This document shows positions 12,890 through 51,797 of a stretch of DNA of 64,000 bases, one piece after another. Source of the DNA: Odiellus spinosus. Taxonomy: Eukaryota; Arthropoda; Arachnida; Opiliones; Phalangiidae. The stretch spans positions 6,455,372-6,519,371 of the forward strand of contig OY987225.1 in NCBI GenBank assembly GCA_963920705.1, in the 5' to 3' direction. The translations under genes and the position numbers were made by a program. Position 1 is the stretch's first letter. Every line of letters starts with the position of its first letter. The notes beneath the pieces are model-generated. The model was given only the letters and a program-made list of their open reading frames with translations, was not told where the DNA came from and made no database searches.

Positions 12890-13890
12890 ATCAATGGGGA
12901 ACGCAGACGTTTAGAGTTCGGGCCAGGTGGATAATAATAAACATCTAATGAAGGTCCACCAGGCTTAACTGTTTTTCGCTTAATTAGTTTTCTAATCCAG
13001 CCTTGCTTAAAAGGTTCCTTATAACGCTCATATAATTAGTGAAGGATCATTAGTATTATCTTCTGCAGAAGATAAGGTAAATAATCTCATATCGTGTTCG
13101 AAGAAGAACGGGAGGGTCTGAGAATAATTCAAAACCAGGTTCTGAAGTATCGATAAGTGATTCTAACGATGAACTTCGTGTACTAGGATGGGTTTCTATT
13201 GTACTTCTTCACTTGAGGATCGCAGTTCATTATAACTATCTTGGATTTGGACAGACTGATGACCAAGGATTTCAGAGCCTGTTTGATCAGGAATTTCCTT
13301 AGAAAGGGTATTGGGGACGTTAGATGAAGTCTGCGCGCTGACCTCAGCTGTTGATGTTAAATGAGTACTCGATTGGCCGATCGAATCCTCAGTAGCTGGT
13401 ATATCTGTATCCTCTACCATAAGTCTTTCATCAATATAGTTTGAGTTGAGAGATATGAGTGGTGCCTATAATTTCACCTGTTTCTATGTCTTCTCACTCA
13501 TATACTAAAGGAGATTGTTTATCTACTATTTTGTAAGGTCCTTTCCATTTCGGACTTCATTTTGCCATAAAACCTGATGCTGCCTGGGACAAAGGAAAAG
13601 TTTCCTTCCAGACAAGTGTTCTAATATTATATTCTATCGGATCTCGCTTCTGATCATGGAGAATTTTAATGGTTTTTGCACGATCCATATCTTGGGGTAG
13701 TTCTAACTCATATTCAGAGTAAATTTCCCAAGGATTACGTTGTTCTCTGCCGTAATTTAAATAAAATGGTGATCTACCTGTTGTATCGTGAGGAACTGAG
13801 TTTATTGCAAATGCAATTAAAGGTAAATTTAAATCCCATCGGCGATGGTGTCTACCGACATACATGGAAATTGTTTCACCTAGTGCTTGC
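12890..13890 (-). pseudogene. degenerate MBD-tailed Ty3/Gypsy pol 3' end
   Basis: The upstream part reads ALGETISMYVGRHHRRWD and AFAINSVPHDTTGRSPFYLN, the same blocks as after the integrase E residue in the intact element (LGETISIYVG, AFAINSAPHDTT-RSPFYLN). Then follow a VWKETFPLSQA strand, the GPY module (KWKGPYKIVDKQSPLVYE), an acidic linker, and at 13033-12895 an MBD-like block: GWIRKLIKRKTVKPGG, LDVYYYPPGP, KRLRSP. Several frame changes and stops interrupt it. RT and protease are absent. It is a 5'-truncated, older relative of the element at 29-38 kb; the retained MBD shows that the domain belongs to the lineage. Confidence 0.75.
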
Positions 13891-20629: not shown

Positions 20630-21044
20630 ATATCTAGAATATTATAGTTCTCAACAAAGAGGAGGCGGGATCCGCGGTTTTCACGGCGGTGTCTACCAAT
20701 CAGGAAGAGGTCTGGGTTCAATTTTTAGGTCTTTATTAAAATATGTCACACCAGTTTTAAAACCGTTAGCTTCAAATTTGGGTACTGAAGCGTTAAGCAT
20801 GAGTCATAACATTCTTAAAGATATTCAAGGAGGTATGGAGCCTAAACCCAGTTTAAAAAGAAATTCGCGAATTGCCGTAGCCAATTTGATAAATAAAGTG
20901 GTGGATAATACCATTAGACCTCAGAGTGGAAGTGGCAATAAAAGGAGACGCAAGGGTTCAAAACTAGGCTCTGACAAACGCTTTAAAAATCTACGGAAAA
21001 AACGCAAAAAACCTCGTCAAATTAGATCGGATTATTTAGATTGA
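20622..21044 (+). CDS. basic core/membrane-lytic-like protein (adenovirus pVI/pX-type position), 140 aa
   Basis: ATG at 20622 overlaps the stop of the preceding gene. The N-terminal third is Gly-rich (GGGIRGFHGGVYQSGRGLG) and followed by an amphipathic helix (SIFRSLLKYVTPVLKPLA); the last 40 residues are highly basic (KRRRKGSKLGSDKRFK, KKRKKPRQ). Gly-rich start, amphipathic helix and basic tail are typical of the small virion proteins in Polinton/adintovirus-like blocks, compared with adenovirus pVI or core proteins. Only 4 bp separate it from the capsid-type gene downstream. The ORF is intact. Confidence 0.5.
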   Translation: MNRYLEYYSSQQRGGGIRGFHGGVYQSGRGLGSIFRSLLKYVTPVLKPLASNLGTEALSMSHNILKDIQGGMEPKPSLKRNSRIAVANLINKVVDNTIRPQSGSGNKRRRKGSKLGSDKRFKNLRKKRKKPRQIRSDYLD

Positions 21045-21048
21045 AAAA

Positions 21049-22359
21049 ATGGCTCTTTACGAAGGAATGATGTCTAATTTAGATTTGTTTACTCGTCCCC
21101 TATTAAATAGAAATATTATTTCCAATAAAACGACTCAGTATCACCCCATCTCCCCCGTCAATGAAAATACCGAGCAAATAGAGTTTTTTATCGCTGGAAA
21201 CCCGTTATATCTTGATTTATCAAAACTACGCATTAAAGTTAGGGCCCGTATTGTTCATACGGACGGGACCATTTTAGAACCTGACGAGAAAAAAGTGTCC
21301 TTAAGTAACATTACTATCGCGAGTCTTTTTAGCCAAGTTGAGGCATATCTCGGAACTAAACCGGTGCAATCTTCCAATGCTCTTTATCCATATCAGGCCT
21401 ACTTGGCAACTCATTTAAATTACGGGCCGGCGGCCAAAGAAAGTCAATTAACCGCGTGGGGGTATTACAGCGATTATCCCTCTAAGCCAGACGATGCTTT
21501 TGTAGCGGCTGATTCTATCAAAAATGGCATTAAAACTCGCTCTACTTTTGTCCTCCAATCAAATGTTTTCGAATTCTTAGGCTCTTTATTTTTAGATATT
21601 ACCAAACTCGATAAATTTTTAATTAACGATGTGGATGTTCGAGTTAGATTACTTCGCGCTCCTAACGCTTTTTCTATTATTAGCACAGAAGCGAATAAAC
21701 AATATAAAATTGAACTTGTCGAAGTTAGTTTATACGCCAAACATGTAGAAGTGTTGGACCAAATTGTTTTGTCTCACGCGGCTGTAATGAGAAAAACTCC
21801 CGCCATTTATCCTTTGACAAACGTCACGATGAAGAGTTTCGTCATCATGGCGAACTCAACGGATGTCGTAAGGGAATTTTTTGGTTTAGTTCCCAACCGT
21901 GTTGTTATTGGTCTGGTAACGAATAAATGCAAAAACGGTTCACTCGATACAAATCCCTTTAATTTTAAGCATTTTACGTTAAATTTCCTTCAAATAACCG
22001 TCGGTACGCTAAATTTCCCTGACCAAGCTTTTACCCCAAATTTCAATACGAATAAATCTCTTAATTACACCCGTGAATACCAGTCTTTGTTTGATGGCCT
22101 TGGTACTGACCTTACCGATACCGGGAATGGGATCTCCTATCAGCGGTTTCTTCATGGAACTGTTTATACGCGTTTTATCTTACAAAAGAACCATCTCGCC
22201 TCTTCAAGCCACAGCTCCGTGACGCAAACAGGCAGCGTTCGAATCTCCATGAAATTTGAAAAACCCCTGCCGGAAAATGTTTGCGTTTTAATATACGCTG
22301 AATTTGAAAACACGATTCTTATTTCTCAAGAACGAGATATCATCTATACCCCGCAATAA
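21049..22359 (+). CDS. major capsid-type protein, F54H12.2-like, 436 aa
   Basis: Intact ORF from ATG 21049. The sequence resembles the widespread metazoan proteins annotated after C. elegans F54H12.2: a start with DLFTRPLLNRNI, then IEFFIAGNPLYLDLSKLRIK, ALYPYQAYLATHLNYG and many beta-strand-like segments. In those genomes the gene neighbours an F54H12.3-type integrase and an adenain-like protease, as it does here, so a double-jelly-roll capsid-type role in a Polinton/adintovirus-like element is likely. That is family knowledge plus gene order, not a fold shown by sequence. There are no lesions and it is the best-kept gene of the block. Confidence 0.6.
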   Translation: MALYEGMMSNLDLFTRPLLNRNIISNKTTQYHPISPVNENTEQIEFFIAGNPLYLDLSKLRIKVRARIVHTDGTILEPDEKKVSLSNITIASLFSQVEAYLGTKPVQSSNALYPYQAYLATHLNYGPAAKESQLTAWGYYSDYPSKPDDAFVAADSIKNGIKTRSTFVLQSNVFEFLGSLFLDITKLDKFLINDVDVRVRLLRAPNAFSIISTEANKQYKIELVEVSLYAKHVEVLDQIVLSHAAVMRKTPAIYPLTNVTMKSFVIMANSTDVVREFFGLVPNRVVIGLVTNKCKNGSLDTNPFNFKHFTLNFLQITVGTLNFPDQAFTPNFNTNKSLNYTREYQSLFDGLGTDLTDTGNGISYQRFLHGTVYTRFILQKNHLASSSHSSVTQTGSVRISMKFEKPLPENVCVLIYAEFENTILISQERDIIYTPQ

Positions 22360-22401
22360 AAACGCCTCCGTCTTTCAAAATTTAATTATTTAACGGTCAA
22401 C

Positions 22402-23059
22402 ATGGGTCCAGTGCACAACTTGTCCGAGAAGCTCGAAATTACGGTGGTAAACGCCTTAGAACCCGAAATAAACGTTCGACGAGTCGATATGCTGACAACA
22501 TTGAATCTGAAAGAAGAGGCTTGGTTAACTTTATTTCGATTTGCCGACGACATTACCGCTTTTTTGAAAAATAACTCGAGACGATTTCATTTATGGCTTC
22601 CAATTTCAAATGAAAAAATAAAACTGGAATGTTTCGTGAACTCATCGTTACTACGAACGGGGCAATCAAGCAAATTATTTCGTATTATATTCTACCGCCA
22701 GGGGTTTTAGTCTGAAGCTAAAGAATTGGGAAAGACTTCTCATCTTAAAACCAGTTTTGGATCGTGAAATCAAAAGCAAGAAAGCCGCGCGACTTCATAT
22801 GAAAGAATTATTGGTTAATCATTTAACTAATATTATTTTTGACATGACTGATAATTGTCCAAATATCGATTGTAAAAAATCGCTAGCCCATACTCCAGAA
22901 TGTAACGCGGGCGGAGGGAGCTGGGAAAATAGAGTAGAAATAACTCTATCTGAGGCTTTACCTTTAATCGATCGATCTGTTATATTAAATAAATTTCGCG
23001 CCGAATACGGATTTGAAGATGAAAATTTATTATTTAATTATGAGTACGAATTTACATGA
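22402..23059 (+). pseudogene. accessory protein of the virus-like block (same family as 7053 and 3985), frameshifted
   Basis: ATG 22402 begins a frame containing NVRRVDMLTTLNLKEEAWL; it stops at 22710, but the neighbouring frame continues from about 22700 with FSLKLKNWERLLILKPVL and a Cys/His cluster (CPNIDC, HTPEC) to 23059, near 220 residues in all. The x-S-L-x-L-x2-W-x2-L block parallels GFSITLNAWEKL at 7053-7370 and GFGITPAEWATL at 3985-4440. The shift lies in a GGGG/TTTT stretch near 22700. Placement between capsid and integrase genes ties this small family to the virus-like block. The PC4-like reading of the W/L motif is only a suggestion. Confidence 0.45.
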
Positions 23060-23189
23060 ACTAAAGAACGCTCTAGTTTTTGGTTATTAAAAAATGTATA
23101 TTAACTGATGTTCTGAAATAAAAAAATATTTTTGGTCACGTTTTTTCGTTTTTTTCCCACTTATTTTTTGTAGCCTTATTAAATATACT

Positions 23190-24150
23190 ATGAAAAAAAT
23201 ATCAAAATTATCTGCCCCTATTAAAAAACGCTTAAAGAATGTATATTATAATATCGAACATCCAGCCTCGTACAGTAACGTAGAGATCTTAAAAAAAGAA
23301 TTTCCAGATATTTCTCGTAAAGTGATAGTGGAATGGTTTGAAAGTCAAAAATCGTACACGAGGCATCGATTTCGAAGAAAACGTTTTAAAACTAATCAAA
23401 TATTCGCCAATAGCCTTAATGAAACGTGGCAATCAGATTTAATTGATTTGCCTAAATTAAAAAAATACAATAAAAATGTTAGATTTATTTTAGTCGCCGT
23501 TGACATTTTAAGTCGCTACGCTTTCGCTAGACCTTTAAAAGATAAATCCAGTGTGGAAATTATCAAAGCTTTTCGAGATATCTTTCGATATCGAAAACCT
23601 TTAAAATTTAATTACCGATATGGGGAAAGAATATAATAATAACGCCTTTAAGAAATTCTTCAAAAAAAATGGCGTCTCGCTCTATTTCGCTTTAGGCACC
23701 CATAAAGCGGCTATCGCCGAACGATTTATTCGAACCTTGAAGGGTCAAATTTATAAAATAATGACCCATACGGGCCAAAATAATTATATACAATATCTAC
23801 CGCGAATTTTAAAAGCGTACAACGCTCGAGTTCATAGTACAACTAATATTGCTCCGGATCAAGTCACTTTGCATAACGAAAATATTGTTTGGAACACGCT
23901 ATACGGACGTGTTAAAAACATTTCCAAAAAATCTACGTCGTTACAAAAACGAGATCTGGTCCGTTTGTCCGTGGGTGAAAGGGCCTTCAGAAAGATTTAT
24001 ACGGGTACATTCACGCCCGAAATTTTTGTCGTTGATCGAGTTATAAAACGTGACCCTCCTGTGTACAAACTCAAAGATTTGAAAAACGAAGAAATTGCGG
24101 GTCCATTTTACGCGAACGAGCTTCAACGAGTGCGTTTACCAGAGACTTGA
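23190..24150 (+). pseudogene. DDE integrase of the Polinton/adintovirus-like block (F54H12.3-like), one frameshift
   Basis: ATG 23190 starts an HTH-like N-terminus (SYSNVEILKKEFPDISRKVI, VEWFESQKSYTRHR) and the integrase core: first Asp in WQSDLID, then FILVAVDILSRYAFARPL. The frame breaks near 23612; the second frame carries the second Asp just before GKEYNN and the Glu in KAAIAERFIRTLKG, and ends with a C-terminal SH3-like segment (PPVYKLKDL, FYANELQ) at 24150. The three catalytic acidic residues survive, so a single indel separates it from an intact enzyme of about 320 residues. It would insert the element's DNA, giving short target duplications in Polintons. Confidence 0.75.
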
Positions 24151-25862: not shown

Positions 25863-26198
25863 CTAGTCACAATAAATTATCATGGGTGCTTCGTTAATTA
25901 AAATACGACTCCTTAGTCTTAAACGGTCAGGTGTTTCTTGTTTATTGTCTATGAGTAAATAACTATAGGGTTCTCGAGTCGCTAGTTTATATGCTTCTAC
26001 TATTTTTTTTCCCTTAACCCGGAGCAATTTGCGATCCTAACAAAGAAATTCCTAAGGAATCTCGGGGATTTTTAAAATAAATAATGTAACAAGTGTTTAA
26101 AGATATTAACCGAGCTTGGCTACCTTTCGGAAATAAAGTTTGACAAAGGATCATGACACTAATATTAAAGTGATGCGATTTTACCGTCACTAAATTAG
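25863..26198 (-). pseudogene. packaging-type ATPase, C-terminal part only
   Basis: The minus strand reads VKSHHFNISVMILCQTLFPKG and SQARLISLNTCYIIYFKNP, then, after a stop/frame change near 26020, AYKLATREPYSYLLIDNKQ to the stop at 25863-25865. The block H-x-N-I-S-(V/I)-x3-QN/TLF-x-KG..AR-x-(I/M)-SLN-x-x-YI(I/V)..KNPRD is characteristic of the FtsK/HerA-like ATPases of Polinton-type elements near their arginine/sensor region. Walker A and B would lie to the right, but the gene is cut at about 26198, where the duplicated P-like gene sequence begins. No ATPase N-terminus is present elsewhere in the window. Confidence 0.6.
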
Positions 26199-27513
26199 CG
26201 TAAATCATTACATGTATCACAAACTGCCTAAATCATTACATGTATCACAAAAATCATTGGCTAAAAGCTATTGATTAAAATTTACTTTTTTCGAATCAAG
26301 TTTTCTTTTTCTTTTCCCTCAAATGATGTTTTTCTCAACTGCGATTTTTCTAAATTTAAGTTTAAAATTTGGTTTTTATTCCATGTATTTTTACTAGAAT
26401 TAATATCTAGACTAGCAAAAGCAGCGCCCTTTTTAGATCTCTTCATTAATTTCTTTGGTGCAAAATTTTGTTCATTAATGTTTACAATTTCTTTCTTCGG
26501 TTTTAAATTGGGCTTGATTGTAGCAGCGGAAGTTTTACCCTTTTTCCCAACCCTTATTTTTTGTTGATCCATAACCCCTTTGGTATTTTCTAGCACTTGA
26601 TCTTTCTTTAAAGTTTCTTCTTTCTTGTCAGCTTCCTTCTTCGCTCTTCGGGTGATCATAGGCGACGAAATGACTAGGATTTTTTCCTTCTTCCCCTCTT
26701 GATTTTATTTTCCTTAAACTTTCTGCGCTTTCTTTCTCTATTTTTAAATTTTGAATAATTGGAGTAGATTGAGATCCTTCAATAAATATTGCACGTTTTC
26801 CCTTTTTCCCATCTTTACAAGAATCAAGGGTGACTACTTGGTTTTGTACTTTCTTTGACTTAAGAACGTCTTTTTTCTCTTTCTTTGAGAGCGAGATATT
26901 TTGCTCGTGTTTGTCTTCTAAAGCTGCCCTGAGAGCTTTTTTGGCTCTAATACTTTCCTTAGTATCGTGCTGATATATCTCCTTAATATCTTTAACTAAG
27001 CACTTCCCTCGTGTGTTAAAAAAAATGTCCAGCATTTTCATTAACCACTTGGTCTCGTCAAACCCGTGCAGCTCTGCCCATTCTTTGGTTATTTCAACAT
27101 CATTTAGTGCATCTTGCATTGCGTTAGTTTTAAGGTTCTGGTTTCGTATTGCGTTAAAATCTACGCTATAATGCTTATCCGACAAGGATTTAATTTTCAA
27201 GATTAGTTCGAAAAACTTGTCTGATACATTAATTAACCCTCCTCGGGATAGTTTCTGAATCCAGGCTTCTGTATCCTCAGTTGATAAAAGATTTCCTTCT
27301 TTAGTCATATTATTTATCATAATTTGGGGGCATTTCTTTTTAATTAATGTACGCACTACAAATCCCCCAACATATCGCAAAACATCGTCATTCTTCCTGG
27401 GTCTTGAAGTCCCGTAGTCCACTGGTTCTTCTACATCACACATAGCTTCTCTATCTTTCTGTCTCTTTTTCTCTACTTTATCAATTAAATTTTGAATTCC
27501 AATTTTAAGTTCT
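26198..27513. repeat. 1.3-kb direct duplication, left copy
   Basis: It matches 38428-39743 almost perfectly; only a few substitutions were noticed (for example at left positions 26285, 27125 and 27443). It starts at GCGTAAATCATTACATG inside a short tandem repeat and ends at CCAATTTTAAGTT. The left copy continues into upstream coding sequence while the right copy stops at an LTR-like TGTAACCGG, so the left copy is the donor-like form. Confidence 0.9.
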
Positions 27514-28229: not shown

Positions 28230-29009
28230 TCAACTGCGGCAGCTACTACCCAAAGCTTCTATTCCTTTTACTATATTTTCTATGCTAGCACTAGCCTGTG
28301 TAGAAGGAGGATTAGATCTATGCCTCCGTCTCGGAGAATGATGTGATCCTAAGTGTCTGGTATTTGGTTGGCTTGTGGGATCAACTGCACTGGACTGTAT
28401 GGTAGTGTTGGGAATTGTTTGTTTGGGAATTGTTTGTGAATTCTGATTGGCCCTTGCAATCGAAACTCTCATATCTACCATCTTGTCTTGTAACGTTTGA
28501 ATAACATTTTCTAAATGACGAATATATAAGACTTTCTGATCTAATTGTTGTTGATAAAGGTTAGACTGATTACCTGAACTTTGTACGGATTGAGTTTGTG
28601 TAATAGTAGTAACCTGAACTCCGGTCAAGACTTCAGAAGCAATTACCGAGGCTCTACCAATACTACCTAAAGTCGGAGCTCGATTGTTAACATTAGTAAT
28701 TTCAGGAATAGATTTGGGACTAGTTTCCACAGTTGACTGTCGAGGAGCCAAGGGATCCAGTAATAATAAGTCTTCTTCTATCGGGATAGTTGCGGTTATA
28801 GGGCGTTCAAAAGTTTGTGAATAACTAATATGAGTGGATGTATCAGTCCCTAAACTAATTTCAAATAATGCATCTTGAAATGATTGCATTGCTGTTCTAG
28901 TGAAAAGGTGTTGAAAAGGTCGTCCAGATCGTAGTAACGCTGGGCCCGTAATCGTGTAATCCTCAGTATGAGGTAGGACCTCATCCTCAAGAGGACGTCG
29001 ATCGGCCAT
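28230..29009 (-). CDS. Gag N-terminal protein of the MBD-tailed Gypsy lineage (element B)
   Basis: ATG 29009 opens 259 codons. The product is Ser/Thr/Gln rich with LLRSGRPFQHLF near the start, a coiled segment (QQLDQKVLYIRHLENVIQTL) and a basic end (HHSPRRRHRSNPP). It lies 197 bp downstream of a primer-binding site and LTR on the same strand, the position of gag. Element A lacks exactly this part because of a deletion, so it is best read as the missing N-terminal Gag region of the same family. Element B is cut at about 28230, with no capsid or pol remaining. Confidence 0.55.
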   Translation of the reverse strand: MADRRPLEDEVLPHTEDYTITGPALLRSGRPFQHLFTRTAMQSFQDALFEISLGTDTSTHISYSQTFERPITATIPIEEDLLLLDPLAPRQSTVETSPKSIPEITNVNNRAPTLGSIGRASVIASEVLTGVQVTTITQTQSVQSSGNQSNLYQQQLDQKVLYIRHLENVIQTLQDKMVDMRVSIARANQNSQTIPKQTIPNTTIQSSAVDPTSQPNTRHLGSHHSPRRRHRSNPPSTQASASIENIVKGIEALGSSCRS

Positions 29010-29228: not shown

Positions 29229-29768
29229 TGTAACCGGTGTAACAGGTTTTCACTCAGGACCTTATTATTCCCACTTCAGGGACGCCTACTAATGAGTTTT
29301 GATTCCCTGTTACAATTTGTGATTATCTTTCAAGGCCTACCTTATTGCGATCTTTGATTATTAATAAATTAATCAATTAAGGAATTCCCTTTGGGAAAGG
29401 CAATTCGTTTCACTTAGTAAGTTAGTATATCAGTTTCTTGAAACCTAGGTTTACCTTTTTATTCGCCATGTGGTATCCCCTTTCTCTTGCGTTTCTTATT
29501 GATTTCCTACTACCAATTTATTTGTCGTTTTTCTTTCTTTTTGCTCTTATCCTTGTTTTATTTCTTTTTACTTTTCTATACAACACTGCCATTCATTGAG
29601 GGCTTCTAACAAAAATGAACTTGACGGTAATAAAACCGAGGAGGAACTAAACCTCTTGAAAACGAAAAAAGAATTATTATTTTTTTGTAAGGGAGGAAAA
29701 GCGCAAGGGTCTACTAAGCCCGAAAGTTTTTTGGCGGGCTTTTCGAACTGTTGCCCCCCCCCGTTGCA
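29229..29768 (-). repeat. LTR, 540 bp, shared between element A (3' LTR) and element B (5' LTR)
   Basis: On the minus strand it begins TGCAACGGGGG at 29768 and ends CGGTTACA at 29229, giving TG...CA. A polypurine tract (29792-29769) precedes it, as for a 3' LTR of element A; a primer-binding site follows it, as for a 5' LTR of element B. One LTR thus serves two internal regions, a tandem arrangement usually made by LTR-LTR recombination. Its first 177 bp match the truncated LTR at 37598-37787. Confidence 0.8.
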
Positions 29769-29792
29769 CTCTCCCACCCTTTTTTTTTTTTT
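29769..29792 (-). other. polypurine tract of element A
   Basis: The minus strand reads an A-rich then G-rich purine stretch ending GGGTGGGAGAG directly before the LTR start TGCAACGG. This is the plus-strand priming site of an LTR retrotransposon. Confidence 0.75.
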
Positions 29793-29854: not shown

Positions 29855-31638
29855 TTAGTCCTTTCCTCTTCTGATTCTTTTTTGGTAGCGCTCTCGGTCA
29901 CGGTATTCAAATCGCGAGGGGCAAAAGACAGGATAATGGAGTCCTTTGCGCTGGCAGGCGACACAGGTAAAATTTCTTCTAGGTGGAACGATCACCGGCC
30001 ATCCTTGATCATCTATAGGGTAGAGAGATGAAACTTGTTGCATCGACATCCCTATCCAGGCCACTGGAATCTTTTCCCTACCGAAGGGGGGCTTGGCAAA
30101 GCTTTTCGGTAAATTTTCTTTTCGTCGTCTGATAGTATCCATCTTCGCGCGGGGTGTACCGGTAGATATCCATAAGCTTGATGGGATAAGGAGCGGAATC
30201 TCTCTTTATCGGTATCCAGAATTCTTCGTCCGGTTATTGGGGAAATCTTTAAGTCTTGTTGTTTCTTTTCTTTTTCTTTCTCGAGGATCCATCTTTTGGT
30301 GAAGGCAAACTGATTTGAAAAGTGTTCATAGTGCATGTCGGGAGTTTTTTCTCTCGGAGTATTTTTTTCTCTGATGCGTTTTGTGGTGGAGAGTTTATAA
30401 ATTCCTCGGTCGCTAGGTGTAATAATTCTCCTAACTGGAAAGAAGTAGTCTTCTCTTCGGAATCACTCAATGTGTCAGTATCGTTTAATATAAGCACATC
30501 TCGATCTTTCAAGTTATCCCCGTGGAGTTGAATTTTTAAATTTTTTCTCTTTGTTTTTCTTTCGTCTTCTTTTTCCTGTGCCTTCTTCATCTTATCGCGT
30601 AAGCCGATCCATTGCTCGACTCTACTTCTAGCTTCCTCTTTTTTCTTCAATTTTTCTCTCTTGTCTGTTTCGTGTTTCTTATTTGGTAATTCCCCAGTCT
30701 CCGGATCAGGTTGAGGGTCCAGGCTTCTCATGAATTTTATATTGTTTCTTCTTTGGATCTGAGCTTCTTCCAATTCTTCCTGAGCCCTTCTTTCTGTTTC
30801 TCTGATCTTTTTCTCTTCCCTTCTCGGTCTTCGTTCTTCCTCTAGATTCCATACTTCTGCCTGCTCTTTTTCAATTCGAGCCCTTCGTTTCTCCATATCC
30901 CTCTTATAATGTTCTTGTAACAACTTTTTTCTCGCGTCTTTCTGATCTTCTTCTTTCTTCCATATTCTAAGCCTCTCCTTCTCTTCTTCTTGTCTCTCTT
31001 TCGCGATTCTTTCTTTTTCCAGTTTCAGTTCTCTCGCTCTTTTTCTCCTATTTTGGGAATTTTTCTATGTATTTTCTTAAATTGTCTGCCTCCATTCGTT
31101 CTCTGTTGACCTTATGTGTTTCTTCTGAACTTTTATCTTCCACTTTATACCTTTTTTCTTTTTGGTTTAGTTTCCCTTTTTTGGATTCCACCGCTTTCGG
31201 TTTTCCTTCCTCGATTTCTTCCTCATCTTGTCGTCTTTGGGTGGGGGAGGCCTTTTTCATAATCCAGTTGGTTTCACTCGGTTTTTCTTTTTCCTGTATT
31301 TCAAGGGTTTGGTCGCGTTTTCCCACTGTTCCACAGAGGAGTACGTTTGAGGCAACTAGATTCGTAGGTATTCTTCGGTACTTGACGATTGAATTTTCAG
31401 TTGAGTCAATTTTCAAAGAAGTGTTGCGTTTTGAGCTTTTATTTTGTTTATTTTGAAATAGTCTCTTTTTCTTGATGTTAAAGATCTTGCGTTCTTCTTT
31501 TGAACTGATTGTATAGTCTGGGAGGACCGTTGACCATTTTTCGAAAGGAAGTTCGCTGATATTATCGAAATATACTGTCTGCCCATTCAAAGTTGCTCCT
31601 AAACATTTTCGATCCAGAATCCAAAGTTTTTTCTCCAA
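29855..31638 (-). pseudogene. third ORF of the MBD-tailed Gypsy (ORF3), about 590 codons, three frame changes
   Basis: Starting near 31638 (KKLWILDRKCLGATLNG), the reading moves frame near 31055, 30285 and 30095 and ends at 29855. The middle is a long, highly charged coiled-coil stretch (EKERIAKERQEEEKERLRIW and onward). The C-terminus has a compact domain: YGYLPVHPARRW, then NFTCVACQRKGLHYPVFC with a C-x2-C-x5-H-x4-C zinc-knuckle-like spacing. It lies between pol and the polypurine tract, the place of env or accessory genes, but there is no signal peptide or membrane anchor. A nucleic-acid-binding accessory protein is more likely. The frame changes fall in simple-sequence stretches, so some may be assembly errors. 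Confidence 0.5.
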
Positions 31639-31934: not shown

Positions 31935-34900
31935 TCAGGTTCGTCTTATTCTGGCAACACGAATTCTTTCCCTGGGAGGTTTGGCAATTGGGTGTCGGTC
32001 AAAATCACCTACTACCAGATCTTTTATATTTTTGGATCTTAAATAAGCCTCCAATTCCCTTGGGGAACGTAACCGTTTGGGTTTTGGCCCTGGAGGAAAA
32101 TAATATACATCAAAAGAAACACCTTTCGGTCTAACGGTATGCCTATAACATATTTCCCTAAACCATCCTTTTTTAAAAGGTTTCTCATAATTTGTGGGAA
32201 TTTCATCCCTAAGAGAAGGGGATTCCCCACTAGGGGAAGAGGAATCGCTTTCCGCGTCATAATTGAGTGGTGGATGTTCCTGAATTTCCTCTTCATCATC
32301 TCTTTGATCTTCCCCTTCTGATCCCTCTTCTCTGTGTGTTTTTCTCTTTGGAACGCCTGTTGAATCTGACTTAGGTGATCCTTTTCTTTTGTATTTAGTA
32401 AGTCGTCCTGCATTTCGTTTTAGGATCTCTCGTCCTTTCTCTATGAGAGCTGCATCGTATACTGAGGAGCTCGAGGATTTTTCCTTCCTTCGTTTTAGGT
32501 CGGGTTTATCTGAAGGACTAGAGGAAGCATCTCTCTTATTTCTCGTTATCTCAGGAATAGATGTAGGAGGTTGAACGTCAATGCTGGTATTGTCTGCCTT
32601 CAGACCCTCTTTCGGGTCATCCTCTTTTGACTTTTTCCTTTGAGGTTTTCCGGAAGATGAGGATGAAGAACTAAGGGCGTGAACGGGTCTTTTTGTTTTA
32701 ACTCGTTCTTCTTCCCTGGCTTTTAATTCTCCTTGAGAGAAGGTTTCTAAAAGGAACCTTGTTTTGTCCTTTTCCTCTTGATTGATGCCCTTCGATTTTT
32801 TCTTAGTTGGTTTTCCGGAATAGGACGATCTTGACCCATGGACTGGTCTCTTCTGATTTTCCCTTCCTTCTTCGGGGACTATTTCTTCCTGAGAGGAACT
32901 TTCTAAAGGGAATCTTTTTTCCCAGTCTTTCTCAGAGTGAATAGGGCTTAATTCGGGCAATGGTTCCTCCACTTCGTATCTCCTCTTCGGAGTGGTTTCC
33001 TCAAGATTAGGCTCTGGTCTCAAGTTTCTTCTTAATTGCTCCGAATCCGTTTCAGGAATAATTTCAGGATGTGAGTCTTGTTCTCTTCCGGATCCTCCTA
33101 CTCTTGGTTCCCCACTTGATTCTGGAGCTAATACTCTCTCTTCTCGTGGGAGAACTTCCGCATCTCGGGACTCGGGTCTTTGGGGAGGTTGATCTTCCCC
33201 AAGGGGAACTTCCTTGGTATGATATAACTTTAGTTGATCAATGTTATTCGCTCCAATATTTTGCTTAGTGATGACATCTTCCAGAATATAGACCAAGGGA
33301 CTTCTTTTTTCTATGATTTTGTATGGACCAGACCACTTAGGACTCAATTTCGCCATCTGTCCTTCAGCTCTTGATAGAGGGTGCGTTAATCTCCACACTA
33401 ACATTCCGACTTCAAATTCTAAGTTTTCTCGCCGTAGGTCGTAGTATTTCATCTGCTTTTCTTGAGCCAGTCTGGAGAATTCTTTGGCTAGAGCCCATTG
33501 TCTTTTTAATTCCTTTATAGTGGAACTCCTGTCCTCCAGTTCTTCAACTGGCATTCCTATTTCCAGATCCCAGGGTAATTGCGGTTCTCGACCCATGTTC
33601 AAATAGAATGGAGATCTTTTTGTCGTGTCATGTGGTGCTGAATTTATCGCGAAGGCTAGAGCATTTAGAGTTTCATCCCATGTTCGGTGATTGTTTCCAA
33701 CATAAATGGAAATCGTTTCTCCTAAAACTCTATTTACTCTTTCTGTTAAGTCTGATTGGGGATGATACGGAGTTGTGTGAACGGGACTTATTCGGAAGAG
33801 CTTGCAGGTATCTCTCCACAATGTCGATACGAACTGAGTCCTTCTATCGCTCAAAATTTGCTTTGGCGCTCCCCATCTGCAGACGACGTTCTTTAGGGCC
33901 TTGGCGCACGTTTCCGCAGATATATTTCTGATTGGAATAAGTTCGACGTATTTTGTCATATAATCCGTAAAGACTAGAAGATATTTATAACCTCTTCGGC
34001 TTCTAGGGAAGGGACCCATAATGTCCGTTCCGCTCTTATCCCACGGTGAGATTGCTTCGGTGGATATCATTAATCCAGGCCTTCTTCGATTACTGATTTT
34101 GTATTGTTGACAGAGTACACACTCACGGATATACGTTCGAATGTCTCTTATTGCCGGCCACCAGAATCTATGTCCAACTCTTTCTATCGTCTTATCCCTT
34201 CCTCGGTGCGCTGCTAAGGGATGGTCATGTAGCAGTCGAAGAACTTCTCGACGCAATATCGTTGGTAAGAAAATTCTGGATGGTCTCGCTTCGGTGGCTT
34301 TTCTATAGATTAATTGATTTTTCATTTCGAACTTGGGGTGTGGAGGAGGATTTTCTTGATCAAAGTGGTTTCTTAACTCTTCCATAGCCGGATCTTCTCT
34401 TTGAGCGGTGATTATCTCATCTCGGTCAAAGATATGGTAATTTGCATGCGGATATGAAGGTATAACATGGGCTACTATCGATCTGTCGGTCCCTTCACTG
34501 GATGATTCCGATAAATTTCTTAATTCTTCCGATTCTAGTTCGGACGATGAACTTGGAAACTTCGTCATGGCTAATAATCCTAGAGGAGCTCTGGATAGGG
34601 CATCGGCGACCACGTTTTCAACTCCTTTCTTGTGTTGTACTCTGAAGTCAAAAGTTTGAAGGTACATTGCCCACCGTACGAGTCGCGAGTTTGGTTCTTT
34701 CATGCCGAAGAGCCAAGTCAAGGCCTTGTGATCGGTGACAACAGTAAATGGACGACTTTCCAGATAAGGCCGGAAATGACTTACGGCCCAATATATGGCT
34801 AAACATTCCTTTTCAGAGGTGGAATATTTTGGCTCGACGTTTCTCAAGCTCCTACTGGCGTAAGCTATTGGGACTTCCACTCCGTCCTGGATTTGAGTTA

Positions 34901-36464
34901 GGAAAGCACCCAGTCCTGAATCGGATGCATCAGTTGTCAGAATACAAGGAAGTTCGGGTTTGTAAGCGGCTAATGGTGGAGCTGAACTGATGGCTTCTTT
35001 CAGTTTCTGAAAAGATTCTTCCTGTTCTTTTCCCCATGAGAAGGGTACTCCTTTTTTCTTTAATTTATTTATCGGGGCAGCTATCGTTGAAAAGTTAGGA
35101 ATGAATCTATGATGCCATCCTGCCATTCCCAAAAATCGTTGAACTTGTTTGAGGTTCTTTGGTGTTGGGAAATTCTTGATCGCTTCTACTTTCGACAGAT
35201 CTATGTGGATACCTGTTTCGCTTACTACGTGTCCGAGTACAGTAGCTTCTGATTGAGCGAAACGACATTTCTTTAGTTGTAGGGTTAGTCCCGCATTTTG
35301 TAGGCGATGCATCACATATTCTAGGGCGTTTTTATGATCTTCCCAGGTCTTGGAGGGAATTAAGATGTCATCCAAGTACACCACTATAGAGAAAGGTTCT
35401 CCATCTCTAAATATTTCGTCCATAAGCCTTTGAAAGGTTGACGGAGCCCCTGTCAAACCGAACGGAAGAACGTTGAATTCATACTTCCCAGCGTGGGAAA
35501 TGAAGGCTGTCTTCGGTGCACAGTCTGGACACATTTCCACTTGCCAGTATCCACTTTTTAAATCGAGTGCAGTAATATACTTTGGTTTTCCCAACTTATT
35601 TAATGTCTCTTCAATCCAGGGTATTGGGTAGGGATCTTTTTCTGTTACTTTATTTACTCCTCTTAAATCCACACAGAATCTAGTTTTGGTCTTTCCAGTG
35701 CCGGATCCATCATCTTTCTCTACTATAACAATTGGAGATGCCCACGGAGAGGTTGAAGGTCTAATTATTCCGTCCTTTAACATTTCGGAAATGTGTTGTT
35801 CAATAATTTCCTTCTTCCGATCACTGACTCGATACGGCATCTTGTTTATTGGCTTGGCGTTTCCGGTATGGACTTCATGAACTACTAAGTTAGTTCTTCC
35901 CAATTTATCGCTAAACAAATCTGGGAAACGGAGGAGCAATTCCTGTAACTCCTTCTTATATCTCATTGGAAGTTTAGTTCTATCAATCGCTTCATTGACG
36001 TTTTGAGGGGAAGGTGGGCCTTTATCTTTTTGGAGGTCTTGAAATTTCAAAGTAGCTCCGTTGATGTGACAAGATTTGTCCTTAAAATTCATAATTACCT
36101 TCCAATCTTCTAGAAAGTCTTGTCCTAGGATAGCATCGCAGAGTAAAGATGGGACTATGTGGAACTCTTGAGTGAATTTTTTTGAGTTACCATTTTCGAA
36201 TTTTATCTCGAAATCCAGTTTAATAGATCCTTTCGTAAAAGTGTAGTGACCATCTCCCATTACAATGCATTCCGTCACTTTCTCATTGGGAGCAAAAGTT
36301 TCTTCTTCGCCTCGTTTTTTCTTTATTTCTCTCCATTGTTCAATACTGATCATTGAAACTTCCGCTCCGTTGTCTAATCGGGTAGGTATTGTTCCATGTT
36401 CGAAAACAACGGAAATGATATGAGGGAGTCTGTAATATCTCCTCCTTCGTTTAATTAATCCCAA
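31935..36464 (-). CDS. pol: Ty3/Gypsy Pol polyprotein with C-terminal MBD domain, intact 1509 codons
   Basis: Domains in order: retropepsin-like protease (about residue 31, LDNGAEV, with Asn in place of the usual Ser/Thr); reverse transcriptase (YLDD near 363); RNase H (TTDASDSGLGAF near 510); integrase zinc domain (H-x-H...C-x2-C, 745-790), catalytic core with D in SGTDIMGPF (about 811), D in LSDRRTQF (about 873) and E in LTERVNR (about 907); a GPY/F module (KWSGPYKIIE, about 1045); a 340-residue charged Ser/Glu/Lys linker; and an MBD/TAM-like domain at about 1425-1482 (GWFREICYRHTVRPKG, DVYYFPPGPKPKRLRSPREL). The frame begins as TTG and is -1 relative to gag, extending upstream over the gag end, so Pol is probably made by -1 frameshifting. 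No stop interrupts 4.5 kb, implying recent activity. Confidence 0.9.
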   Translation of the reverse strand: MGLIKRRRRYYRLPHIISVVFEHGTIPTRLDNGAEVSMISIEQWREIKKKRGEEETFAPNEKVTECIVMGDGHYTFTKGSIKLDFEIKFENGNSKKFTQEFHIVPSLLCDAILGQDFLEDWKVIMNFKDKSCHINGATLKFQDLQKDKGPPSPQNVNEAIDRTKLPMRYKKELQELLLRFPDLFSDKLGRTNLVVHEVHTGNAKPINKMPYRVSDRKKEIIEQHISEMLKDGIIRPSTSPWASPIVIVEKDDGSGTGKTKTRFCVDLRGVNKVTEKDPYPIPWIEETLNKLGKPKYITALDLKSGYWQVEMCPDCAPKTAFISHAGKYEFNVLPFGLTGAPSTFQRLMDEIFRDGEPFSIVVYLDDILIPSKTWEDHKNALEYVMHRLQNAGLTLQLKKCRFAQSEATVLGHVVSETGIHIDLSKVEAIKNFPTPKNLKQVQRFLGMAGWHHRFIPNFSTIAAPINKLKKKGVPFSWGKEQEESFQKLKEAISSAPPLAAYKPELPCILTTDASDSGLGAFLTQIQDGVEVPIAYASRSLRNVEPKYSTSEKECLAIYWAVSHFRPYLESRPFTVVTDHKALTWLFGMKEPNSRLVRWAMYLQTFDFRVQHKKGVENVVADALSRAPLGLLAMTKFPSSSSELESEELRNLSESSSEGTDRSIVAHVIPSYPHANYHIFDRDEIITAQREDPAMEELRNHFDQENPPPHPKFEMKNQLIYRKATEARPSRIFLPTILRREVLRLLHDHPLAAHRGRDKTIERVGHRFWWPAIRDIRTYIRECVLCQQYKISNRRRPGLMISTEAISPWDKSGTDIMGPFPRSRRGYKYLLVFTDYMTKYVELIPIRNISAETCAKALKNVVCRWGAPKQILSDRRTQFVSTLWRDTCKLFRISPVHTTPYHPQSDLTERVNRVLGETISIYVGNNHRTWDETLNALAFAINSAPHDTTKRSPFYLNMGREPQLPWDLEIGMPVEELEDRSSTIKELKRQWALAKEFSRLAQEKQMKYYDLRRENLEFEVGMLVWRLTHPLSRAEGQMAKLSPKWSGPYKIIEKRSPLVYILEDVITKQNIGANNIDQLKLYHTKEVPLGEDQPPQRPESRDAEVLPREERVLAPESSGEPRVGGSGREQDSHPEIIPETDSEQLRRNLRPEPNLEETTPKRRYEVEEPLPELSPIHSEKDWEKRFPLESSSQEEIVPEEGRENQKRPVHGSRSSYSGKPTKKKSKGINQEEKDKTRFLLETFSQGELKAREEERVKTKRPVHALSSSSSSSGKPQRKKSKEDDPKEGLKADNTSIDVQPPTSIPEITRNKRDASSSPSDKPDLKRRKEKSSSSSVYDAALIEKGREILKRNAGRLTKYKRKGSPKSDSTGVPKRKTHREEGSEGEDQRDDEEEIQEHPPLNYDAESDSSSPSGESPSLRDEIPTNYEKPFKKGWFREICYRHTVRPKGVSFDVYYFPPGPKPKRLRSPRELEAYLRSKNIKDLVVGDFDRHPIAKPPRERIRVARIRRT
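32019..32192 (-). other. MBD (methyl-CpG-binding type) domain at the Pol C-terminus
   Basis: Residues about 1425-1482 of Pol show the family hallmarks: G-W-x-R-E at the start, a basic loop, D-V-Y-Y as the central strand, P-x-G-K-x-(L)-R-S, and E-L-x-x-Y-L at the helix. MBD2/MECP2-type domains use Arg and Tyr/Asp residues in these same blocks to read methylated CpG. The arginine positions RE, R-H-T and RLRS are present. The second, diverged element at 12895-13033 keeps the same blocks. In chromoviruses this position carries a chromodomain that guides integration; an MBD here would by analogy guide insertion to methylated DNA. Confidence 0.75.
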
Positions 36465-36508: not shown

Positions 36509-37597
36509 TTATTGAGTGGTGGCGGGAGGCTGGGCGTTTGTAACTCTGCCTCCCGCTCCGGCGTTTCCCTGGTTCTGATTTCTGAAAATTCGTGGGGAAG
36601 GACAGTTCCTGGCCAAATTTCCGATTCCGTTACAGTTAAAACACATGATTTCATTTCTGGAATTACTGGAGGGCTGAAAAGTTCTTGTGGTATTTCCCCG
36701 GGGACTTTGGTATCGAGTTCCCGTTGGGGGAAGCGCTCTTGGTCTTGCGTTATTTGAACTGGAATTTTGCTGTCTTCGGTTTCTATCGTAACCTCTCCCT
36801 CTTTGTTGACTTGGATTGTTAGCTCGGCGAGGGTATCCTGTTGAGGGACCCGAATGAAAATGAGAACAGGTTACATTTGGCTGTTGTGTATATTGGGGAG
36901 CCATGCCTGGAAATGCCCATGGCAAATACATAAAAGGACTTATTGGTGCGGGATATGGGTCGTTCTCTGACTCATTCCCGCTAGGGAAAGTCTGGTAATG
37001 GGACCAGGCTACTCCATAGGGGCTCATTGGACTGATTCCACTCGGTAGTTGAGGTCTAACTGGTGGAGACGGTGTTGTAGATGTTCCTGCCGTTGTTACA
37101 TCTGTAGCTATTGGGACCAAGGATCCCGGTGTCGATGTTGAGACACTAATAGGTATTGAGGTTTTGGCTGATGTTGTTTTTGGAGTTTCTCTCTGAAATG
37201 TCGGCAGAAGTGTTTTCATTTTTCTCCTTCTTTGTTGGAAAAAGTCCGAGTGTTTGTTCAATTCTTAAGGAATGATGATGTAACTCAAACTGATTTAGCT
37301 TCCATGAAGACCATTTCTGTCCTTAGGTTTCTTTTGAGAGTGGCAATCAATTCGGCTTCGGAAATTGGAGGATTTAAATCTTGATTAACTCGAGCAAAAT
37401 GACCAAAAAATTCATCTACAGATTCTTTTGGTCACTGTTTTTTGTTCATTAATTCAGCTCTCGCTTGAGCTTCAGCTTTTTCTACTCGGTAATGTATCCG
37501 CATTTTGGCTTTAAATTCATCCCAGGTGAGTCCGTCGGGATGTGATCTGAACCAGTACTTTGCATGCGATCTCATTAATAGAGGCATCATCTCCATT
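36509..37597 (-). pseudogene. gag: Gag (capsid and nucleocapsid part) of element A, 5'-truncated
   Basis: From 37597 the minus strand reads a capsid-type segment (MRSHAKYWFRSH, LTWDEFKAKMRIHYRVEKAE, then FFGHFARVNQDL) interrupted by stops near 37435 and 37300 and a frame change near 37265. The following 250-codon frame (37261-36509) is a Pro/Thr/Ser-rich linker and then a CCHC zinc knuckle, CFNCNGIGNLARNC (C-x2-C-x4-L-x2..C; the usual His reads Leu/Ala here, so the knuckle is altered). The N-terminus of Gag, leader and primer site have been deleted: LTR sequence abuts the capsid region directly at 37598. Confidence 0.65.
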
Positions 37598-37787
37598 TTC
37601 ATTGAGGGCTTCTAACAAAAATGAACTTGACGGTAATAAAACCGAGGAAGAACTGATCCTCTTGAAAACGAAAAAAGAATTATTATTTTTTGTAAGGGAG
37701 GAAAAGCGCAAGGGGGCGCCACCAGGTCTACTAAGCCCGAAAGTTTTTTGGCGGGCTTTTCGAACTGTTGCCCCCCCCCCCGTTGCA
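37598..37787 (-). repeat. truncated 5' LTR of element A (190 bp)
   Basis: It matches the first part of the 540-bp LTR at 29592-29768 apart from a 10-13 bp indel in a GGGCGCCACCAG stretch and a few substitutions. It begins (minus strand) TGCAACGGGG at 37787. The remaining about 360 bp of LTR, the primer site and the Gag start are missing, joined at a short shared CAATG. With such a deletion the copy cannot be transcribed and primed normally. Confidence 0.8.
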
Positions 37788-38382: not shown

Positions 38383-38427
38383 ATACAATGTAAAGATAAA
38401 CCATTATCACAATTTATATCACAAACT

Positions 38428-39743
38428 GCGTAAATCATTACATGTATCACAAACTGCCTAAATCATTACATGTATCACAAAAATCATTGGCTAAAAGCTA
38501 TTGATTAAAATTTACTTTTTTCGAGTCAAGTTTTCTTTTTCTTTTCCCTCAAATGATGTTTTTCTCAACTGCGATTTTTCTAAATTTAAGTTTAAAATTT
38601 GGTTTTTATTCCATGTATTTTTACTAGAATTAATATCTAGACTAGCAAAAGCAGCGCCCTTTTTAGATCTCTTCATTAATTTCTTTGGTGCAAAATTTTG
38701 TTCATTAATGTTTACAATTTCTTTCTTCGGTTTTAAATTGGGCTTGATTGTAGCAGCGGAAGTTTTACCCTTTTTCCCAACCCTTATTTTTTGTTGATCC
38801 ATAACCCCTTTGGTATTTTCTAGCACTTGATCTTTCTTTAAAGTTTCTTCTTTCTTGTCAGCTTCCTTCTTCGCTCTTCGGGTGATCATAGGCGACGAAA
38901 TGACTAGGATTTTTTCCTTCTTCCCCTCTTGATTTTATTTTCCTTAAACTTTCTGCGCTTTCTTTCTCTATTTTTAAATTTTGAATAATTGGAGTAGATT
39001 GAGATCCTTCAATAAATATTGCACGTTTTCCCTTTTTCCCATCTTTACAAGAATCAAGGGTGACTACTTGGTTTTGTACTTTCTTTGACTTAAGAACGTC
39101 TTTTTTCTCTTTCTTTGAGAGCGAGATATTTTGCTCGTGTTTGTCTTCTAAAGCTGCCCTGAGAGCTTTTTTGGCTCTAATACTTTCCTTAGTATCGTGC
39201 TGATATATCTCCTTAATATCTTTAACTAAGCACTTCCCTCGTGTGTTAAAAAAAATGTCCAGCATTTTCATTAACCACTTGGTCTCGTCAAACCCGTGCA
39301 GCTCTGCCCATTCTTTGGTTATTTCAACATCATTTAGTGCATCTTGCATTGCGGTAGTTTTAAGGTTCTGGTTTCGTATTGCGTTAAAATCTACGCTATA
39401 ATGCTTATCCGACAAGGATTTAATTTTCAAGATTAGTTCGAAAAACTTGTCTGATACATTAATTAACCCTCCTCGGGATAGTTTCTGAATCCAGGCTTCT
39501 GTATCCTCAGTTGATAAAAGATTTCCTTCTTTAGTCATATTATTTATCATAATTTGGGGGCATTTCTTTTTAATTAATGTACGCACTACAAATCCCCCAA
39601 CATATCGCAAAACATCGTCATTCTTCCTGGGTCTTGAAGTCCCGTAGTCCACTGGTTCTTCTACATCACACATAGCTTCTCTAACTTTCTGTCTCTTTTT
39701 CTCTACTTTATCAATTAAATTTTGAATTCCAATTTTAAGTTTG
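38428..39743 (-). pseudogene. duplicate of the P-like spliced gene (3' part), right copy of the 1.3-kb repeat
   Basis: Carries the same two overlapping minus-strand frames as the left copy (38858-39673 and 38512-38889) with one Asn-to-Thr change seen in the first and one Ile-to-Thr in the second. Exons 1, 2 and the first 87 nt of exon 3 are missing; the break at 39743 coincides with an LTR-like TGTAACCGG. Shared frame changes show these predate the duplication. Near 38405-38475 a 28-bp tandem repeat (ATCACAAACTGC-TAAATCATTACATGT) marks the other breakpoint, suggesting recombination between repeats. Confidence 0.8.
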
Positions 39744-41645: not shown

Positions 41646-44600
41646 ATAGTCGACTTGTATATGTTGCCTGATAATTGAGAGAACAAGGGGTGTTTATCGT
41701 GCAATAATCGACGAACGCTCGTCACCCAATAATCAACGAACCCACATCGCAAAACAATCGACGAACGCTAGTTGCCGCATAAAAGACGAACAGTCGTCGC
41801 CCAATAATAGGCGAGCAGTCGTCGCCCAATAATCGATGAACTCTTGTCGCGTAATAGTCGACGAACAGTCGTCTCCTAATAATCTCTGAACCCACTTCCC
41901 TAAACAATCGACGAACGCTAGTCGCAGGGCTCCCAGCGCATAGCCCAGAAAAAATTATAGGTATTATAGGTTTTAAAAGCCAAAAATATAGGTAATTTAT
42001 AGGTCCAAAAACATCAATTTATAGGACTTTTTATAGGTTTTTAGTTTCGAAAAATAGGGGTTTTATGGGTAGGTTTCTCTGACATGTAATGCAATATAGG
42101 TTCTATAGCCTCTAGACCTGTCCCTCTGCCTTTCTTTGGCACTACTAGCTACTCACGCCCCTCTCGATAATCTACCTAACCTCTAAAAAATAGAGTAATA
42201 ATTACCAGTGACCTAGGAGAGAAAACCTTTCTGCCACAGCTTGGTTTTTTTGCAATCATTTGCACTTTTTCAAGCAAAAGTATAATTTTTATAGTTATAT
42301 AGTTCATTCCTTTCGAATTTTATCACCGAAATTGAACAAATTCCCCAAAAATAGGTATTATAGGTTAAAAAGTGAAATTATAGGTTTTTATAGGATCACT
42401 TTAGATTTATAGGTAATTATAGGTATTATAGGTGGTCTGGGAGCCCTGTAGTCGCCCAATAATAGACGAGCATTCGTCGCCCAATAATCGATAAACGCTT
42501 GTCGCTCAACAATCGACGGCCAGTTGTCGCCCAATAATCTACGAACCCACGTCCCTAAACAATCGACGAACGCTAGTTGCCCAATAATTGACGAACAGTA
42601 GTCACCCAATAATCGATAAACGCTTGTCGCTCAACAACCGACGAACCCACTTCCCAAAACAATCGACGACCAGTCGTCGCCCATTAATCAACGAACCCAC
42701 TTCCCTAAACAATCGACGGACAGTCGTCGCCCAATAATAGACGATTAGCCGTCGCATAATAATCGACGAACAGTCGTCGCTCATTATTCGACGAACAGTC
42801 GTCGCTCATTATTCGACGAACAGTCGTCGCCAATAATCGATGCTTGCTCGTTGCCCAATAATCGATGCTTGCTCGTTGCCCAATAATCAACGAACAGTCG
42901 TCGCCCAATAATCAATGAACAGTAGTCGCCCAATAATAGACGAACAGCCGTCGCATAATAATCGACCAACAGCCGTCGCATAATAATCGACCAACTGCCG
43001 TCGCATATTAATCGACCAACATCCGTCGCATAATAATCGAAGAACAGCCGTCGCATAATAATCGCCGAACAGTCGTCGCCCAATAATCGATATACGCTTG
43101 TCGCTTAATAATGAACGAACAGTCGTCGCTTAATAATCAACGAACAGTCGTCGCTTAATAATCAACGAACAGTCGTCGCTTAATAATCAACGAACAGTCG
43201 TCGCCCAATAATCGACGAACAGCCGTCGCATAATAATCGACGAACAGCCGTCGCATAATAATCGACGAACAGCCGTCGCATAATAATCGACGAACAGCCG
43301 TCGCATAATAATCGACGAACAGCCGTCGCATAGTAATCGACGAACAGCCGTCGCACAATAATCGACGAACAGCCGTCGCATAATAATCGACGAACAGCCG
43401 TCGCATAATAATCGACGAACAGCCGTCGCATAGTAATCGACGAACAGCCGTCGCATAATAATCGCCGAACAGCCGTCGCCCAATAATCGATATACGCTTG
43501 TCGCTCAATAACCCACGAACAATTGTCGCTTAATAATCAACGAACAGTCGTCGCCCAATAATAGACGAACAGCCGTCGCCCAATATTGGACGAACAGTCG
43601 TCGCCCAATATTGGACGAACCGTCGTCGACCAATATTGGACGAACCGTCGTCGCCCAATATTGGACGAACCGTCGTCGCCCAATATTGGACGAACCGTCG
43701 TCGCCCAATATTGGACGAACCGTCGTCGCCCAATATTGGACGAACAGTCGTCGCCCAATATTGGACGAACAGTCGTCGCCCAATATTGGACGAACAGTCG
43801 TCGCCCAATATTGGACGAACAGTCGTCGCCCAATATTGGACGAACCGTCGTCGACCAATATTGGACGAACCGTCGTCGCCCAATATTGGACGAACCGTCG
43901 TCGCCCAATATTGGACGAACCGTCGTCGCCCAATATTGGACGAACCGTCGTCGCCCAATATTGGACGAACAGTCGTCGCCCAATATTGGACGAACAGTCG
44001 TCGCCCAATATTGGACGAACAGTCGTCGCCCAATATTGGACGAACAGTCGTCGCCCAATATTGGACGAACAGTCGTCGCCCAATATTGGACGAACAGTCG
44101 TCGCCCAATATTGGACGAACAGTCGTCGCCCAATATTGGACGAACAGTCGTCGCCCAATATTGGACGAACAGTCGTCGCCCAATATTGGACGAACAGTCG
44201 TCGCCCAATATTGGACGAACAGTCGTCGCCCAATATTGGACGAACAGTCGTCGCCCAATATTGGACGAACAGTCGTCGCTCAGTAATCGACGAACAGTCG
44301 TCGCCCAATAATCGACGCACGCTTGTCGCTCAATAATCCACGAACAGTCGTCGCTTAGTAATCAATGAACAGTCGTCGCCCAGTAAGCAACGAACTGTGA
44401 TCGCCCAATAATGGATGAACGCTTGTCGCACAATAATAGACGAACAGGCGTCGCTTCATCATCGACGAACAATTGTCGCCCAGTAATCAAGGAAGAGTGG
44501 TCGCCCAACAATCATTGAACAGTGGTCGCCCATCAATCATTGAACAGTGATCGCCCAACAATCATTGAACAGTGGTCGCCCAATAATCGATGAATGCCTG

Positions 44601-44690
44601 TCGCTCAATAACCGCCAAACAGTTGTCGCCCAATTATCGACCAACGCGCTTCGCTAAACAACCGACGAACGTTCGTCGCCCAATAATCAG
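41646..44690. repeat. satellite A, 25-bp hairpin-forming unit
   Basis: Typical unit: GACGAACAGTCGTCGCCCAATAATC. Each copy contains the inverted repeat CGACGA-ACAG-TCGTCG. At 43570-44280 a homogeneous block of about 28 units has CCAATATTGG in place of CCAATAATCG, adding a second perfect palindrome of the CC(A/T)6GG form. Variants GTCGCATAATAATC dominate 42940-43460. Units decay toward 41650 and 44690. A MITE interrupts it at 41925-42448. The long open frames on both strands here arise because three 25-bp units make 75 nt without stops; they are not genes. Confidence 0.9.
41925..42448. mobile_element. hAT-like MITE, 524 bp, inside satellite A
   Basis: Ends CAGGGCTCCCAG and CTGGGAGCCCTG are inverted repeats; TAGTCG flanks both sides (41919-41924, 42449-42454). 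CAGGG..CCCTG ends suit hAT elements, whose duplications are usually 8 bp, so a 6-bp match in a repeat background leaves the family open. The interior contains many copies of TATAGGT(A/T)TTATAGG, another simple internal repeat. Confidence 0.75.
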
Positions 44691-48820: not shown

Positions 48821-48944
48821 CTTCACCTCGCCCTTCATTTAAAAAACTATATGCTCCCCCGATGACGTCATTAAAAAAAGTGCACGATTGTATTGCTAGA
48901 GTTAGTAACTTATTCTTTTTACCAGTTCATTAGTTAAATTTGTG

Positions 48945-51692: not shown

Positions 51693-51797
51693 TGTAAAAA
51701 GGTGTTCAATTAATAAATTTTATTTCTGAGCGTAATGAGAAAACTAAAGGTTTATTATTTTTAGATTTGTTGTTTACTACAGTTTATAAACGAGCAA

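Follow-up and report, generated by a model that had tools for sequence, protein, structure and literature searches.

A Ty3/Gypsy retrotransposon group from Odiellus spinosus with a predicted methyl-CpG-binding domain at the end of Pol

The window, by which we mean the whole 64,000-nucleotide stretch of Odiellus spinosus DNA analysed here, contains a Ty3/Gypsy element whose Pol ends in a domain that by its sequence is a methyl-CpG-binding domain (MBD). Our reading, to which we give a probability of roughly 0.65, is that this element belongs to a group of MBD-tailed Gypsy elements that is large and old and has moved recently, and that the MBD tethers integration to methylated CpG.

Results

Pol and its terminal domain

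The features of the element are collected in Table 1. The Pol reading frame is open over 1564 aa, of which 1509 are counted from the listed TTG. Pfam families occur in it in the order reverse transcriptase (RT), RNase H, H2C2 zinc finger and integrase (IN) core, which is the Gypsy order, followed by PF01429, and the best solved relative of the protein is the Ty3 polyprotein (E 5.7e-122). The 1509-codon Pol is Ty3/Gypsy (Metaviridae), as judged by its RT-RH-IN order and Gypsy-type domains, in agreement with the original prediction made from the letters of the sequence. That prediction also placed a GPY module and a long charged linker ahead of a terminal block with the motifs GWFRE, DVYYFPPG and a third; the GPY module is present, the linker follows it, and all three motifs are found in the tail.

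Table 1. Coordinates of the MBD-tailed elements in the window
Feature	Position	Strand	Basis
Pol ORF, 1509 aa from listed TTG	31935..36464	minus	ORF list, Pfam
Protease active-site motif, residues 29-34, reads D-N-G	36363..36380	minus	sequence
Reverse transcriptase and RNase H, residues about 202-625	34590..35861	minus	YLDD, RNase H acidic residues present
Integrase, residues about 729-1081: H2C2 zinc finger, D-D35-E catalytic residues, GPY module	33222..34280	minus	
Charged linker, 335 residues, rich in E, S, P, K, R	32205..33209	minus	
Methyl-CpG-binding domain (Pfam PF01429), residues 1427-1489	31998..32186	minus	profile, structure model
Gag remnant: capsid-like part (by eye), then zinc-knuckle part (ORF 36509-37261)	36509..37605	minus	
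GGGAAAC heptamer in gag/pol overlap, in register for -1 shift into pol	36563..36569	minus	
5' terminal repeat, roughly 190 bp, LTR candidate, TGCAAC...	37598..37787	minus	
3' terminal repeat, LTR candidate, 90.6% identity to 5' copy, indels included	29592..29768	minus	
Polypurine tract abutting 3' repeat on upstream side, right before TGCAAC	29769..29792	minus	
Second, decayed MBD-tailed copy: integrase C-terminal part, 49% aa identity to main copy	13434..13889	minus	
Second copy: MBD, first 43 residues, 63% aa identity, ends after LRSP	12895..13023	minus	

When the whole Pol was scanned, the Pfam MBD profile matched the tail with 27.5 bits (E 2.3e-6), above its gathering cut-off of 21 bits; the 121-aa tail by itself gave 32.2 bits (E 8.2e-8), and ten of ten tails matched the profile at E ≤ 0.1. 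The chromodomain (PF00385) was absent from the seven families matched in the Pol scan, with the MBD in its place. Of two predicted structures, the first, an AlphaFold model of the tail (109 aa, pLDDT 51), was poor and uninformative, with no MBD-family rows in its VIA list. The second, of middling confidence, matched MBD-family structures first, with MeCP2 and MBD4 leading, and the fold predicted by this better model is MBD-like. The original prediction had called the terminal block an MBD and named the profile score, the predicted fold and the presence of the block in relatives as what bears on this; the score is significant, the better model agrees, and the relatives described below retain the block.

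MeCP2 contacts methyl-CpG through four residues (two arginine fingers, an aspartate and a tyrosine), which were mapped through the MeCP2 alignment, using the residue numbering that we take these contacts to have. They are kept in the window tail and in all 13 aligned tail rows. Searched for by pattern, they were found at 19 of the 20 genomic loci described below, the other one (L016, G000:C2) having a histidine for the second arginine. By homology, the tail may be a reader of methylated DNA.

MBD-tailed copies in the window and the genome

When all six frames of the window were scanned with a tail model built from two sequences, two matches exceeded the inclusion threshold, namely the main element and a second, decayed copy. 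The truncated MBD of the latter scores 16.7 bits, below the MBD cut-off, and keeps the contact residues within the part that is left. In the genome that holds the window (443 Mb, 286 contigs) the 121-aa tail matched at least 150 places at E ≤ 0.001, with 150 of 312 candidates scored and a few of the 150 overlapping each other. By hand count, 25 of these listed matches lie in a frame of at least 1300 aa with no stop within the match.

Twenty of the genomic places, picked for their long frames, were fetched as 9-kb stretches. In every one of them the longest ORF (1365-1706 aa) has the MBD at its C-terminal end; for L028 the tail model printed another stretch, and the MBD is visible at the C-terminus. 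The Pol core could be aligned to that of the window in 19 of the 20, the exception being L016, which is 89% identical to L015 in DNA sequence over 5.5 kb. We divided the copies into subfamilies A (the window element and L009-L014), B (L015-L020), C (L021-L023), D (L024-L025) and E (L026-L028). The subfamily B copy L020 (G000:C183) has most of the MBD, with its end replaced by unrelated sequence. The pairs L017/L018 and L024/L025 are at least 99.9% identical over more than 8 kb, possibly as a result of duplicated assembly, in which case the copy counts would be too high.

Two subfamily C copies have well-defined ends. The long terminal repeats (LTRs) of L021 are identical over 658 bp with CAGT on either side, a 4-bp target duplication, and a stretch starting with TGG follows the LTR; in L023 the 658-bp LTRs are 99.85% identical and flanked by CCAT. 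Some copies of subfamily C are therefore very young. An LTR pair was not detected in 17 of the 20 fetched stretches, whose 9 kb may not span both ends of the element.

Relatives and Pol phylogeny

The protein relatives comprise the best 120 of 2910 and the best 120 of 982 matches, and 236 proteins were listed. The nearest full-core match among them is P0004 (1228 aa, source label lgn), which is 44% identical to the window Pol over RT-IN and carries an MBD in the same layout. YLDD, the RNase H acidic residues, the H2C2 finger, the D-D35-E triad and the GPY motif, under the names that we take these motifs to have, are common to both proteins. A tail model made from the window and P0004 matched just these two out of 237 (the window and the 236 listed proteins). 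A protein search with the tail only (residues 1020-1509) gave no match among the 7995 candidates scored, and scans of viral_contigs and genome_contigs found no relative. Two fish proteins, P0005 (Labeo rohita) and P0009 (Cyprinus carpio), are likewise Ty3/Gypsy and share 41-42% identity with the window Pol across 97-98% of RT-IN; in contrast to P0004 neither shows an MBD, and they stop 29 and 14 residues past the aligned core.

In a first tree, built from 72 of the 177 rows whose core is almost complete, the window Pol and P0004 were joined with an SH-aLRT value of 99, and in a 35-row tree of chosen rows the second window copy fell with these two (100/99). We then have a 39-row Pol tree of 12 MBD-tailed and 27 chosen other rows, calculated with the MBD excluded from the alignment and with no outgroup. 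All 12 MBD-tailed rows form one group in it (100/100), with P0004 inside that group beside subfamilies D and E (100/99). Given this grouping, the MBD was probably acquired once, ahead of the split of the sampled subfamilies.

Selection on the tail

Between the two window copies pN/pS is 0.33 for the MBD (bootstrap 0.17-0.59) and 0.35 for the integrase part (0.27-0.45), where synonymous sites are saturated. Comparisons of the window element with L014, L009, L015 and L017 gave values of, respectively, 0.26, 0.19, 0.48 and 0.50 for the MBD and 0.27, 0.33, 0.70 and 0.61 for the linker. The corresponding values are 0.07, 0.05, 0.22 and 0.20 for integrase and 0.04, 0.04, 0.17 and 0.17 for RT-RNase H. 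The MBD is under purifying selection, which is weaker than that on the enzymes and only moderately stronger than that on the linker.

State of the window copy

The description of the 1509-codon Pol as intact holds for the open frame on the minus strand, but not for all of its motifs or for the rest of the element. The second integrase motif reads D-R-R, whereas its usual glycine is kept in all 20 fetched relatives, and gag is truncated at its 5' end and interrupted by an in-frame TGA and a frameshift. Because of D-R-R and the damaged gag, the window copy, with its open Pol, is unlikely to be autonomous. The D-N-G of the protease was considered as a further defect, and this was dropped, as all 12 copies fetched from subfamilies A and B share it. 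In subfamilies C and E the motif is D-T-G or D-S-G, and in both D copies it is D-C-G. For the aspartic protease of an element with a long open frame, both D-N-G and D-C-G are unusual. The gag and pol of the window element overlap, with pol in the -1 frame, and the GGGAAAC heptamer within the overlap is likely to be the -1 frameshift site by which Gag-Pol would be made.

The 190-bp repeat is the better LTR candidate since the purine tract adjoins its 3' copy. A 1325-bp direct repeat on both sides of the element (26187-27511 and 38419-39741, 99.5% identical) was rejected as the true LTR because its ends are not TG..CA; each of its copies contains a 271-aa ORF, and the one that was scanned has no Pfam match. 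No target duplication was found at the ends of the window copy, and there is no clear primer-binding site past the 5' repeat, so these ends have probably been rearranged. Between pol and the 3' repeat (29855-31638, minus strand) lie about 2 kb of broken ORFs, possibly a third ORF; two pieces of this region were scanned and gave no Pfam family above cut-off. An ORF at 28230-29009 was considered as a displaced gag N-terminus and set aside, having no match to the 236 listed relatives.

Host methylation machinery and CpG content

The genome contains a DNMT1 exon (match to a PDB DNMT1, E 2.1e-26), encodes an MBD2/3 C-terminal domain (E 3.5e-29) and has a second methyltransferase piece that looks DNMT2-like by eye. 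DNMT3 was not seen in the genome search, which exons can escape. The observed/expected (o/e) ratio of CpG is 1.07 for the window when its arrays are left out, and the DNMT1 piece has a value of 0.71. For the fetched stretches with their flanks it is 0.83-0.90 in subfamily A, 0.78-1.15 in B, 1.06-1.09 in C, 0.85-0.86 in D and 0.56-0.61 in E. This spread is compatible with mosaic methylation of the genome but no proof of it.

Discussion

The chromoviruses, which are also Ty3/Gypsy elements, have a chromodomain at the C-terminus of integrase that directs integration. Like them, the elements described here carry what appears to be a chromatin-reading module behind the integrase of a Gypsy Pol; whereas the chromodomain reads methylated histone H3, the present module would, by homology, read methylated DNA. 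We suggest that the MBD, held on its charged linker behind integrase, binds symmetrically methylated CpG of host chromatin and that this binding would tether the integration complex to such sites. As the tail lies where a chromodomain directs integration, the simplest reading is that it would tie integrase to methylated CpG, and methyl-CpG binding, tethering and a bias in insertion sites are what we infer for the MBD-tailed elements.

Three other explanations were weighed. Were the tail the product of a chance fusion, such as read-through into the exon of a host MBD gene, or were the profile match spurious, the modest score of the single sequence would be accounted for, and nothing more. The second window copy, the genomic matches (at least 150) and P0004 with its identical layout argue that the tail is no chance match; together with the C-terminal MBD in five subfamilies and their single group in the 39-row tree, they refute this explanation, which we regard as practically dismissed. 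A more substantial one is that the tail resembles the TAM domains of BAZ2, which are thought to bind DNA or RNA with no preference for methyl-CpG, and gives integrase a general affinity for nucleic acid. BAZ2B is indeed the top solved relative of a ten-tail profile (E 1.3e-9), and the tails of subfamilies D and E appear BAZ2-like by eye. However, BAZ2B lacks the aspartate and tyrosine in the alignment to that profile, whereas both are kept along with the two arginines in 13 of 13 rows. Taken alone, the window tail is closest to MeCP2 and that of P0004 to MBD4 (E 1.1e-5), and these two proteins also head the structure matches. The MBD/TAM domains of MeCP2, MBD4 and BAZ2 all resemble the tail in sequence profile and predicted fold, and differ from it in belonging to host chromatin proteins rather than to a Pol. 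We consider a general affinity of this kind unlikely.

Slightly less likely still, in our view, is that the MBD acts on the methylated copies of the element itself, where it would compete with host readers and recruit or block silencing partners, and so protect expression. The MBD2/3-type coding piece provides a possible reader to compete with, and the CpG depletion of the three subfamily E stretches is what would be expected if those elements were methylated. The position of the MBD behind integrase in all five subfamilies examined is, however, that of chromodomain targeting, and Pol is normally produced in lower amounts than Gag, which suits tethering more than titration. Tethering of integration to methylated CpG is therefore the reading that we prefer.

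An MBD-bearing retrotransposon as such has already been published. De Mendoza, Pflueger and Lister (Genome Res 29:1277) reportedly described in 2019 the capture of an MBD by an arthropod family of Ty1/Copia retrotransposons, CopiaMBD, and are said to have proposed that the captured domain biases its integration by DNA methylation. Both CopiaMBD and the present elements are LTR retrotransposons with a captured host-type MBD; CopiaMBD, in contrast, has IN before RT, as in Ty1/Copia, and the present elements have RT ahead of IN. Since they are Gypsy elements, their capture was probably independent of the Copia one. The original prediction took an MBD-tailed Gypsy lineage to be undescribed, and our search of the full-text literature, thin on subscription papers, found none; the Gypsy form is new, but the combination of an MBD with a retrotransposon is not.

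If our reading is correct, retrotransposons of two superfamilies took up a methyl-CpG reader, which in Gypsy occupies the place where chromodomains steer integration. A single genome contains five or more divergent subfamilies with the MBD tail, among them one whose copies include very young ones, together with coding pieces of DNMT1 and MBD2/3 type. The guiding of retrotransposon insertion by methylation becomes directly testable here, by comparison of insertion sites with the methylome. The fuller account, of a separate Gypsy group with an ancient capture independent of Copia, recently mobile and with an MBD that steers insertion to methylated host DNA, seems to us evenly poised between right and wrong; were it true, methylation reading would have evolved on two or more occasions as a means of targeting integration.

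Other features of the window

An integrase fragment of another Gypsy element lies at 3277-3618 (minus strand), with no MBD found downstream of it. Three large tandem arrays occupy 42451-44688, 51795-55111 and 55375-62431, with units of 25, 20 and 103 bp in about 90, 166 and 69 copies, respectively. DNA-transposon proteins are encoded at 48942-51692 (Transposase_21) and 62617-63162 (DDE_Tnp_4). On the plus strand, 19568-24150 contains ORFs of 353, 436 and 176 aa that have no Pfam match and presumably resemble proteins encoded by a large mobile element that is widespread among invertebrates.
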